Below are positions 21,046-31,611 of a stretch of 48,299 nt of DNA, one piece after another. The notes under the pieces are model-generated. The model did no database searches, was not told the DNA's origin, and saw only the letters and a program-made list of their open reading frames with translations. Both the position numbers and the translations under genes were made by a program. Location: contig JAUWQN010000004.1 of the NCBI GenBank assembly GCA_030611045.1, positions 1-48,299 on the forward strand, in the 5' to 3' direction. The number at the start of each line of letters is the position of its first letter. Positions within the stretch are counted from its first letter, which is position 1. Origin of the DNA: Methanosarcinales archaeon (lineage in GTDB: Archaea > Halobacteriota > Syntropharchaeia > Alkanophagales > Methanospirareceae).

Positions 21046-22066
21046 GTCTTGATTGACCTCCTGTAAATCGCACTAAATCCTCAAGTTTTCTGTATGCCTC
21101 TCCCGAATCTATTGAAAGAGAAGCGAGCTCAAAACCGTCCTTTAAGTTTTCTGCACGCCCCCCAACGACCAGTGCTGCTGCAGCATTCATCAAAACAGCA
21201 TTCCGCCTCGCTCCTTTTCGCCCCTTCAAAATATCAATGCCAATTTTCGCATTCTCTTCTGCATTTCCTCCTTCTATCTCTTCTACTCTCGCCCTTTCCA
21301 GCCCAAAATCCCCTGGAGATATGCTGTACGTTGTTATCACTCCGTCTTTGAGTTCTGCGATTTTAGTCTCACCAATTGGCGAGATTTCATCTAAGCCATC
21401 CAATCCATGAGCAACTATTGCATGCCGCACTCCAAGACCTGCTAACACGTTCGCAATTTTTTCTACGAGCGAGACATCATAGACACCTATCACTTGCGCT
21501 TGCACCTTCGCCGGATTTGCCAGCGGGCCAAGGATGTTGAATACCGTTCGTATCCCTATCTCCCTTCTCGGTCCTATCGCATATTTCATTGCTGGATGGA
21601 ACACTGGAGCGAACATAAAACCCATTCCTACTTCTTCTATACACTCGCACACCCTCTCTGGCGCAAGCATTATATCAAGACCAAGTGCTTCCAGAACATC
21701 TGCAGAACCTGCCTTTGACGAAACCGCTCTGTTCCCATGCTTTGCAACTACAATACCAGCACCAGCAGAGACAAAAGCTGAAACTGTGCTTATATTAAAA
21801 GTTTTTATCCTATCACCACCAGTTCCACAGGTGTCTACCATTACTCTATCAACTTTCGGAGAAATGATGGATGCATACTGGAGCATCGCATGAACAAACG
21901 AAACAATCTCTTCAACGGTCTCACCTTTCATCCTCAGTGCGGTTAAGAAGGAGGCTATTTGTGCACTCGTCGCACTTCCACTCATTATTTCTTCCATCAC
22001 AAGCCTTGCTTCCCCCGGTTCGAGGTCTTTTCTCTCCACTACTTTCGAGATCGCTTCTTTTATCAT
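21026..22066 (-). CDS. trpD: Anthranilate phosphoribosyltransferase
   Basis: Transfers phosphoribose from PRPP to anthranilate. The PRPP loop is VDTCGTGGDRIKTFNISTVS (residues 78-97), followed by AKHGNRAVSSKAGSADVLEA, both diagnostic. GMGFMFAPVFHPAMKYAIGP and NILGPLANPAKVQAQVIGVY form the anthranilate channel. Length of 346 residues is standard. It overlaps trpG by 4 bp upstream and trpC by 20 bp downstream. Confidence 0.97.
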   Translation of the reverse strand: MIKEAISKVVERKDLEPGEARLVMEEIMSGSATSAQIASFLTALRMKGETVEEIVSFVHAMLQYASIISPKVDRVMVDTCGTGGDRIKTFNISTVSAFVSAGAGIVVAKHGNRAVSSKAGSADVLEALGLDIMLAPERVCECIEEVGMGFMFAPVFHPAMKYAIGPRREIGIRTVFNILGPLANPAKVQAQVIGVYDVSLVEKIANVLAGLGVRHAIVAHGLDGLDEISPIGETKIAELKDGVITTYSISPGDFGLERARVEEIEGGNAEENAKIGIDILKGRKGARRNAVLMNAAAALVVGGRAENLKDGFELASLSIDSGEAYRKLEDLVRFTGGQSRLERFDR

Positions 22067-22620
22067 TTCCCCATAAAGTTCTCTATTATCTTTCTCCCTT
22101 CTCCGGTCAGTATGGATTCTGGATGAAACTGAACTCCTTCTATTGGCAACGTTCTATGCCGTATTCCCATTATTTCGGCATCTTCTGCTCGTGCGGAAAT
22201 TTGTAAGCAAGATGGGAGATCCGCTTCACAAACCACAAGTGAGTGATACCGCGTTGCGTGAAAGGGATTCTTCACTCCTTTTAATAGCCCTTTGGAATCG
22301 TGATGTATATCTGAAACTTTTCCGTGCATTAATCTCCGTGCGTAGCCTATCCTGGCACCGAAAACATGTCCTATTACTTGATGTCCTAAACAAACCCCGA
22401 GAATAGGACACCTAAGCTCTTTCACTACTTCTTCAGAAACTCCAGCGCTCTCCGGTCTTCCGGGTCCTGGAGAAATGATGACCCTGTCTGCTTCTATCTT
22501 CTTGAGTTCCTCTATCCCTACATCATTCCTCCGCACTACTACCTCCGCACCAAGTTCTCTAACATATTGCACGAGGTTGTATACGAAGGAATCGTAGTTA
22601 TCTATCACAAGCACTTTCAT
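22063..22620 (-). CDS. trpG: Anthranilate synthase component II (glutamine amidotransferase)
   Basis: Class I amidotransferase that supplies ammonia to TrpE. VLVIDNYDSFVYNLVQYVRE is the usual start, IISPGPGRPESAGVSEE the oxyanion region, GVCLGHQVIGHVFGARIGYA carries nucleophile Cys77, and EGVQFHPESILTGEGRKIIE carries His166 and Glu168. Length 185. It is a stand-alone subunit, not fused to TrpE or TrpD, and overlaps trpE by 23 bp and trpD by 4 bp. Confidence 0.97.
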   Translation of the reverse strand: MKVLVIDNYDSFVYNLVQYVRELGAEVVVRRNDVGIEELKKIEADRVIISPGPGRPESAGVSEEVVKELRCPILGVCLGHQVIGHVFGARIGYARRLMHGKVSDIHHDSKGLLKGVKNPFHATRYHSLVVCEADLPSCLQISARAEDAEIMGIRHRTLPIEGVQFHPESILTGEGRKIIENFMGK

Positions 22621-29818: not shown

Positions 29819-29905
29819 TTACTTCTTATATCTCATCTTCTTGCGTCTCTTCTTCAACTTGTGCTTCCGCATCTTTGCCAGCTTTCGCTTCTTTCCACAG
29901 GGAAT
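29819..29905 (-). CDS. 28-residue basic protein, AURKAIP1/COX24 (mS38-like) family, ATT start
   Basis: A minus-strand frame reads (M)PCGKKRKLAKMRKHKLKK, then RRKKMRYKK and TAA. This matches the AURKAIP1/COX24 pattern of tiny basic proteins known from Bacteroidetes (MP-GKKRKRHKMATHKRKKRLRKNRHKKK type) and from the mitoribosomal protein mS38, which bind rRNA near the decoding site. The first codon aligned to the family Met is ATT at 29905. AGGTGGTGA lies six bases upstream, a good Shine-Dalgarno distance, and an in-frame TGA closes the frame just above. There is no in-frame ATG until residue 12. Over half of the residues are Lys or Arg. The family call rests on my recollection of the pattern and needs a profile search. 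Confidence 0.7.
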   Translation of the reverse strand: MPCGKKRKLAKMRKHKLKKRRKKMRYKK

Positions 29906-30007
29906 TTGAAATCACCACCTATCATATCCGTTATTTATTACTCAGTTATAATTAATTAATATATAAATATTTTATTAGTGTGAGAAAGACATTGGGATGG
30001 AGATGAG

Positions 30008-30682
30008 ATGGGGAGGATAGAGAGGCCACCAAGTTGGATATTGAAATACCGTGAAAGGATAGAGCAGGGAAAGATAACCGTGGATGCGATTCTGGGGGAG
30101 GAGAACAAGATACGAGAGGTGCCAATAAAGATCTCATCAGTGACGAGAGCGATAAATGCCCTAGGACATCCTATTACAGGGATGCGAAGAGGAAAGATGG
30201 CTGAAGTGAAAGAGGGGGAAGCGAAGGGAAGCGTTGAATCCGGCGAAAAAACAGAAAAGATAGAAAGAGGTCCGGAATGGCTACAGAAATACCGTGAAAG
30301 GATAGAGCAGGGAAAGATAACCGTGGATGCGATTCTGGAGGAGGAGAACAAGATACGAGAGGTGCCGATAAAACGGTCTTCAGTGACGAGAGCGGTAAAT
30401 TCTATGGGGTACCCCATTACAGGGATGCGAAAGGAGAGAAGGAAAGAAGCAAAAGAAGTAGAAAAAACAAAAAAAACAGGCGGGGCAGAAGCGGTTGTTT
30501 ATTCTTCCAGCATTGGTAAACTATCGGCAGCGACGGCGAAGAGATTTAATGAGATAAAGAAGAGCTGGGAGGAAGACTTAGATAAATCCCTGCATAATGA
30601 CTATTTTGTTAACATACTCCTTGCGTTAGCAAAGCTCGCTGAACACGGGAAATCACTTGCGCCAGTGACAGTGAATAGATAA
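30008..30682 (+). CDS. Unrecognised protein with two near-identical internal repeats
   Basis: 224 residues. Two units of about 50 residues (around 10-60 and 91-141) share KYRERIEQGKITVDAIL, EENKIREVPIK, SSVTRA and GYPITGMR. The spacing is 81 codons (243 bp). The last part has IGKLSAATAKRFNEIKKSWE and KSLHNDYFVNILLALAKLAE, a helical segment. The unit is basic and its SSVTRAVNSMGYPI end looks like a helix-turn-helix, which suggests nucleic-acid binding, but I do not recognise a family. It lies 11 bp upstream of mfnD and may be cotranscribed. The promoter region before it is AT-rich (ATATATAAATATTTT near 29970). Confidence 0.75.
   Translation: MGRIERPPSWILKYRERIEQGKITVDAILGEENKIREVPIKISSVTRAINALGHPITGMRRGKMAEVKEGEAKGSVESGEKTEKIERGPEWLQKYRERIEQGKITVDAILEEENKIREVPIKRSSVTRAVNSMGYPITGMRKERRKEAKEVEKTKKTGGAEAVVYSSSIGKLSAATAKRFNEIKKSWEEDLDKSLHNDYFVNILLALAKLAEHGKSLAPVTVNR
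30021..30190 (+). repeat. Intragenic tandem duplication, unit 1
   Basis: From about 30043 the first 80 bases (GAAATACCGTGAAAGGATAG onwards) match unit 2 at 30286 with a single mismatch. Similarity then falls gradually to about 30186, ending in the shared ATTACAGGGATGCGAA. High identity at synonymous sites means recent duplication or gene conversion. Confidence 0.9.
30264..30433 (+). repeat. Intragenic tandem duplication, unit 2
   Basis: Second unit, 243 bp downstream of unit 1 and in the same frame. Unit 1 and unit 2 are joined by a roughly 30-residue acidic, Glu- and Lys-rich linker. The centre of unit 2 differs at KRSSVTRAVNSM against KISSVTRAINAL in unit 1. Confidence 0.9.
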
Positions 30683-30693
30683 GATAAAATAGA

Positions 30694-31611
30694 ATGCGGA
30701 TACTGGTAGCTGAGTATGCAGTAGGTGGGGGCGAGGGGAATAGCGTCTCGTTATTAAGAGAAGGAAAAGCGATGCTTTCAACGCTAAAAGAGGGATTTGA
30801 GCGGATGGGACATGAAGTTGTCTATCCAGAGGCGGAAACTGATTTTGAAGCAGCGGTGGATAAGCTATCAAAGGAGAGCGATGCAGGCATTGTTATCGCT
30901 CCTGATGATAAGTTATGCGCGCTTACAGAGCTTATTGAGTCGAATACAGTCAATTTGGGCAGTCCTTCAGATTCTATAAAAATATGCGCTGATAAGATGC
31001 TGACATCAAAAATTTTAAGAGGAGAAGGAATACCTGTGCCTAGAATTGTATCAGTGGAAGAAGTAGAAAGAAATGAAGAGCGGAGGTACGTGAGTAAGCC
31101 GCGGTATGGGTGTGCATCTGAAGACATTTTTATACTGAATGCAGAGAAATATCAAAAAGTTCTATCCCACTACAATAATGCTGATCATATTATCACCGAA
31201 TTCGCAATCGGGGATGATATAAGCAGCAGCATCATTGTGGGGAAATCCTCGGTATTGCCACTAACAATAAACAAGCAATTTATAAGAACAGAGGGAGAAC
31301 GCCTGCGCTACGAAGGGGGATTCGTTCCTTATTTTATAGGGCGTGAAGCCGAGAGCGAGATAATGCGCATAAGTAAGAGGGTGGTAACCATACTTCACTG
31401 CAGAGGCTATGTGGGGATAGATTTCGTATTGGGTGAAGATGGAACGGCATACGTTGTGGACGTGAATCCTAGACCTACAACGTCAATCGTAGGAATAGCA
31501 AAGGTGTTGAATTATGAGGTGCCGGATTTGATATTACGAGCAAAGTTTGGAACGTTACCTATGGCGGGGGGCGTAAAAACCGAAGGACGTTTCGTTTTCA
31601 ATCTCTCGTAG
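30694..31611 (+). CDS. mfnD: Tyramine-L-glutamate ligase, methanofuran biosynthesis
   Basis: ATP-grasp enzyme joining glutamate to tyramine in the side chain of methanofuran. The start MRILVAEYAVGGGEGNSVSL is the typical MfnD opening. The domain continues with SDSIKICADKMLTSKILRGE, GIPVPRIVSVEEVERNE, KPRYGCASEDIFIL and the Mg/ATP site VGIDFVLGEDG then VVDVNPRPTTSIVGIAKVLN. At 305 residues it has normal length. Its presence implies a C1-carrier pathway of the methanogenic type. No other methanofuran gene is in the window. Confidence 0.88.
   Translation: MRILVAEYAVGGGEGNSVSLLREGKAMLSTLKEGFERMGHEVVYPEAETDFEAAVDKLSKESDAGIVIAPDDKLCALTELIESNTVNLGSPSDSIKICADKMLTSKILRGEGIPVPRIVSVEEVERNEERRYVSKPRYGCASEDIFILNAEKYQKVLSHYNNADHIITEFAIGDDISSSIIVGKSSVLPLTINKQFIRTEGERLRYEGGFVPYFIGREAESEIMRISKRVVTILHCRGYVGIDFVLGEDGTAYVVDVNPRPTTSIVGIAKVLNYEVPDLILRAKFGTLPMAGGVKTEGRFVFNLS

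Follow-up and report, generated by a model that had tools for sequence, protein, structure and literature searches.

A new order-restricted family of archaeal repeat proteins encoded beside an MfnD-like gene

The window, as the whole 48,299-nt stretch of archaeal DNA analyzed here is called, carries at 30008-30682 a genuine open reading frame for a 224-aa protein with two in-register repeat units. This protein belongs to a new, order-restricted family of Methanophagales (ANME-1), the order in which we infer the window and its relatives to lie, and its number of units differs between relatives. A near-identical stretch shared by the two units, read in an earlier note as a very recent internal duplication, is well explained from the site patterns as a short intragenic gene conversion of unit 2 onto unit 1; the repeat is old, and only this stretch recent.

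The repeat protein and its family

The features of the locus, in positions of the window, are as follows.
29930-30007, + strand: promoter and leader region, aligned with 14 relatives; its elements are putative
30008-30682, + strand: repeat protein gene, 224 aa, with two predicted three-helix units, linkers and a conserved C-terminal tail
30023-30193, + strand: unit 1, first-position type (WILKY); profile match E 6e-31; predicted helices at residues 9-20, 25-35 and 42-51
30043-30123, + strand: gene-conversion tract, acceptor in unit 1; the donor is unit 2 at 30286-30366
30194-30265, + strand: linker 1, disordered in the AlphaFold model (pLDDT <50 at residues 60-85)
30266-30436, + strand: unit 2, last-position type (WLQKY); profile match E 1.6e-31; predicted helices at residues 90-101, 106-116 and 123-132
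30437-30484, + strand: linker 2, basic, disordered in the AlphaFold model (pLDDT <50 at residues 141-168)
30485-30667, + strand: C-terminal tail domain; profile match E 2.7e-33; predicted helical hairpin, residues 174-191 and 199-212
30694-31611, + strand: MfnD-like ATP-grasp ligase gene (PF02655, E 4.8e-36), the immediate downstream neighbor

The gene contains a direct repeat of 205 nt with a spacing of 243 nt, which is the in-register distance of 81 codons given in the earlier note, and the net charge of its units is modest (+4 and +2). A TATA-like element near 29958-29970 and a purine-rich ribosome-binding region probably lie upstream. Purifying selection acts on the gene (dN 0.044 and dS 0.135 between the window and its closest relative, L004; dN/dS ~0.22 for the last unit and tail between the window and L006 and L007), which is kept throughout the order at a dN/dS of less than 1. 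Divergently from it, on the - strand at 29819-29905, lies a small basic ORF (IPCGKKRKLAKMRKHKLKKRRKKMRYKK) that is kept in most relatives and bears a weak likeness to COX24_C, below cut-off (E 0.31). Its conserved start has no in-frame ATG, GTG or TTG; the start codon may be an ATT or an internal ATG.

The description of the protein as unrecognized holds: it passes no Pfam or NCBIfam cut-off, weak matches of the whole protein to TonB, SHOCT and similar models fall below all curated cut-offs, PHROG matches are weak (best E 0.006), the PDB holds no related sequence, and a keyword search of open papers returned no description of the family. A viral or mobile origin was dropped, as no relatives lie on viral contigs and PADLOC gives no match for the window protein.

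Sixteen public contigs carry relatives. The titles of most of them name Methanosarcinales, Methanophagales or Syntrophoarchaeum MAGs, and it is from these titles that we infer the order to be Methanophagales; one contig labeled Nitrosotalea has the same gene order as the others and is probably mislabeled or mis-binned. A whole-genome search matched the window protein in 52 of 119 genomes, its own included. Across the phylum, 51 of the 53 matches of the unit profile fall in the order of the window (families f1 and f2), and the two others (G109 and G235) are marginal, partial matches (E ~8e-4) taken as chance. Within the order, the unit is present in 51 and the tail in 49 of the 53 Methanophagales genomes sampled, both genomes without a unit match being incomplete. 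The family was not found in the rest of the phylum sampled, save for the tail in one protein of a sister family.

The suggestion that copy number changes was borne out by unit counts, which range from one to four per protein and vary inside genera g1, g3, g7, g10 and g14. One unit is found in family f2 and genus g8, two in g11, g13 and two members of g1, and three or four elsewhere; these counts come from fragmented assemblies and may be too low. In one relative (G026), a single in-frame TAG (L025:1573-1575) splits a four-unit protein inside unit 3, and could be a nonsense mutation, a sequencing error or a site of readthrough.

Origin of the near-identical stretch

Units 1 and 2 differ at one position (30096) in the 81 nt from 30043 to 30123, silent sites included, and the next mismatch falls at 30124. 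The earlier note had seen this single difference and had placed it in the first 80 bases of the units. The near-identity stands, but not its placement: the units start near 30016, and 12 of the 27 nt between 30016 and 30042 are mismatched, so that the stretch is internal. Mismatches number 24 in the 73 nt beyond 30129, and 43 in the 205 sites of the whole repeat.

Comparison with the relatives argues for gene conversion. The closest relative, L004 (90% protein identity), likewise has two units, and the next, L005, has three. Inside the stretch, unit 1 of the window is closer to the relatives' last units, with differences at 4-7 of 87 sites, than to their first units, with differences at 11-12, whereas directly after it the differences are 4/73 from first units and 24/73 from last units. 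Diagnostic sites were defined as those at which first and last units are told apart in each of the two relatives compared. At these sites, unit 1 of the window carries the last-unit allele in 7 of 8 cases inside the stretch and in 2 of 34 outside; the resulting contrast of last- with first-unit alleles (7:1 against 2:32) gives a one-sided Fisher p of 1e-5, which is indicative since the stretch was picked post hoc. Last-unit alleles occupy 30050, 30052, 30082, 30085, 30088, 30091 and 30120, with the first-unit allele nearly everywhere else. Because last-unit alleles fall almost only inside the stretch, a short conversion in unit 1 is well supported. Local homogenization of units recurs outside the genome of the window: in G011, the identity of units 2 and 3 is 100% over the corresponding amino-terminal part and 54% over the remainder.

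The one observation in favor of a very recent tandem duplication of a unit is the single mismatch in 81 nt. Against it, last-unit alleles are confined to the stretch, and units keep their positional identity across the order: among 95 units from 34 genomes, 31/33 first units are closest to a first unit, and 29/31 last units to a last unit, of another genome. Given the two units of the closest relative and the kept positional identity, the duplication predates the split of the window from its relatives, and the recent-duplication reading, now of negligible probability, was dropped.

The fragmentation of the source assembly (89 contigs) and the proneness of repeats to mis-assembly, which may have made exact unit counts in some relatives wrong, raise the question of an artefact collapsing or duplicating a repeat. 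However, the two-unit form and its synteny are common to independent assemblies, L004 among them, and the two copies in the window diverge at 43/205 positions; an artefact is thus very improbable and was dropped as well. The stretch is a clean natural example of gene conversion, on a short intragenic scale, in an archaeal repeat protein.

Predicted structure and other carriers of the unit or tail

The structure predictions proposed in the earlier note, of one unit and of the full protein, were carried out, and the HTH-like helical pattern, linker and helical tail that it had read from the letters reappear in the models, the linker as a flexible one. For the window protein (35 alignment rows), AlphaFold predicts three helices per unit (pLDDT ~85), disordered linkers and a two-helix tail, in a domain arrangement that is not fixed (pTM 0.28); a single unit (46 rows) reaches a mean pLDDT of 80.6, with a core near 90. 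The predicted three-helix core is that expected of an HTH or winged-helix domain, but no Pfam HTH family exceeds its cut-off and Foldseek returns no significant match (best E 2.9 in the PDB and 0.37 among viral structures). HTH and winged-helix proteins are frequent among the non-significant Foldseek matches (ArgR/AhrC four times, MecI, Timeless DNA-binding repeats, GcrA, a PAX-type paired domain). The unit profile reached 4% probability against a single, approximate Fur-like HTH sequence. The HTH-like reading of the unit is thus a lead only.

With ArgR/AhrC and MecI, the unit would share a three-helix topology with a putative helix-turn-helix; unlike them, the family has no predicted wing strands and carries its one to four units on long disordered linkers, and no score of the window protein to them, in sequence or structure, is significant. 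POU domains, TnsB and Timeless DNA-binding repeats, also weak fold matches, resemble the window protein in having at least two small helical modules joined by linkers, modules that in those systems bind DNA; their sequences are unrelated, and in the family of the window the number of modules varies among close relatives. The tail resembles by eye the two-helix part of ribbon-helix-helix proteins (CopG/NikR/Arc), yet no strand is modeled and an independent profile comparison with hhalign gave a probability of 0.6%. On present evidence the tail is no member of that group, and the assignment was dropped.

Both unit and tail occur in other proteins. An aspartate dehydrogenase carries one N-terminal unit in two same-genus relatives (L059:3298-4377 and L060:4704-5783), and in the genome of the window itself (G000, contig C55 near 21463-22533; L068:6463-7533) the middle of the corresponding unit is missing through an in-frame deletion. 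A single-unit paralogue, divergent and ~145-155 aa long, matches no Pfam family; it is found in 25 of 58 genomes of the class and is absent from that of the window. This conserved protein has a second, C-terminal region (L061:5923-6381, L062:5193-5669, L063:5201-5632 and L064:4848-5285), and in L063 it is encoded beside an HTH_3 regulator (PF01381, E 3e-6). Finally, the sister-family protein mentioned above (G056, L103:3974-4369, - strand, 132 aa) joins a histone H1/HC2-like lysine-rich arm to a tail of the window type, an arm that the window protein lacks. In the genome of the window (1.5 Mb), five loci on contigs C82, C46, C57, C5 and C18 match the histone fold (PF00808) above the Pfam cut-off; the role of main chromatin protein is therefore not vacant, and was dropped for the repeat protein.

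Genomic neighborhood and possible function

Wherever the locus could be checked, the repeat gene lies directly upstream of the MfnD-like gene. Of 81 loci, which overlap between genomes, 80 have a gap of -4 to +30 nt and one has a gap of 99 nt. This adjacency had been pointed out before under the name mfnD, which we keep provisional: the neighbor qualifies as an ATP-grasp protein of PF02655, but since its best score among the NCBIfam models listed, to the MfnD model NF040722, is 121 bits against a cut-off of 400, it is called MfnD-like. Outgroup family f2 keeps this neighbor, and the JAB, nucleotidyltransferase, NikR and proteasome genes that surround the locus in the window were not found beside the repeat gene there. 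Other genes flank the MfnD-like gene in sister families.

The explanation that we favor, at slightly less than even confidence, is a multi-headed, HTH-like nucleic-acid-binding regulator co-expressed with the MfnD-like enzyme. The protein would be made from one transcript with the ligase and would present one to four three-helix heads on flexible linkers, followed by a conserved helical-hairpin tail that probably oligomerizes. Several heads would most likely bind nucleic acid at once, and the protein would regulate the cofactor-biosynthesis operon to which it belongs, or genes associated with it, in the manner of multi-HTH regulators. The heads themselves are old; their number shifts, probably through unequal recombination, and their sequence is patched locally by intragenic gene conversion, which produced the near-identical stretch of the window. 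We count in favor of such a regulator the prevalence of units (51/53) and tail (49/53) in genomes of the order, the tight pairing with the MfnD-like gene, the AlphaFold three-helix units (pLDDT ~85-90) with HTH-rich weak fold matches, the tail behind an H1/HC2-like arm and the paralogue beside an HTH_3 regulator in L063. Against it stand the lack of a significant Foldseek match or of a passing Pfam HTH family, the 4% probability of the Fur-like comparison, the modest charge of the units, and the region upstream of the repeat gene, in which no operator-like repeat was seen by eye.

The aspartate dehydrogenase fusion (L059 and L060) also counts against a regulator, as it could mean a protein-interaction module. 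The protein could then be a scaffold or regulatory subunit whose units attach to the MfnD-like ligase, or to other enzymes that use amino acids, and whose tail oligomerizes them. Its almost invariable place next to the MfnD-like gene, at a spacing typical of co-translated partners, agrees with such a role. Nevertheless, aspartate dehydrogenase does not need the unit, because that on C55 lost its middle in frame; moreover, other unit-bearing paralogues are encoded far from both enzymes, and the topology of the units is HTH-like. We consider a scaffold rather unlikely.

Several neighbors of the repeat gene are translation-related (eIF5A, GlyRS and the small basic ORF with weak COX24_C likeness), and repeated small basic modules on linkers are able to bind RNA, which would suit an RNA-binding or translation-linked protein placing its basic helices on rRNA or mRNA. 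However, outgroup family f2 retains only the MfnD-like neighbor, and no RNA-binding family is matched; such a protein is improbable.

The family is uncharacterized, nearly universal in and restricted to the ANME-1 order of methane oxidizers, and tied to an MfnD-like (methanofuran-type) gene, with a number of heads that changes between sister species. If the protein does act as a regulator, it becomes a candidate for a mode of gene control peculiar to these uncultured archaea. A bolder and unlikely extension is that recombination and gene conversion tune the number of DNA-binding heads from one ANME-1 species to another in a lineage-specific regulator; if true, this would set the control of a cofactor operon related to methanofuran in organisms whose methanogenesis runs in reverse.
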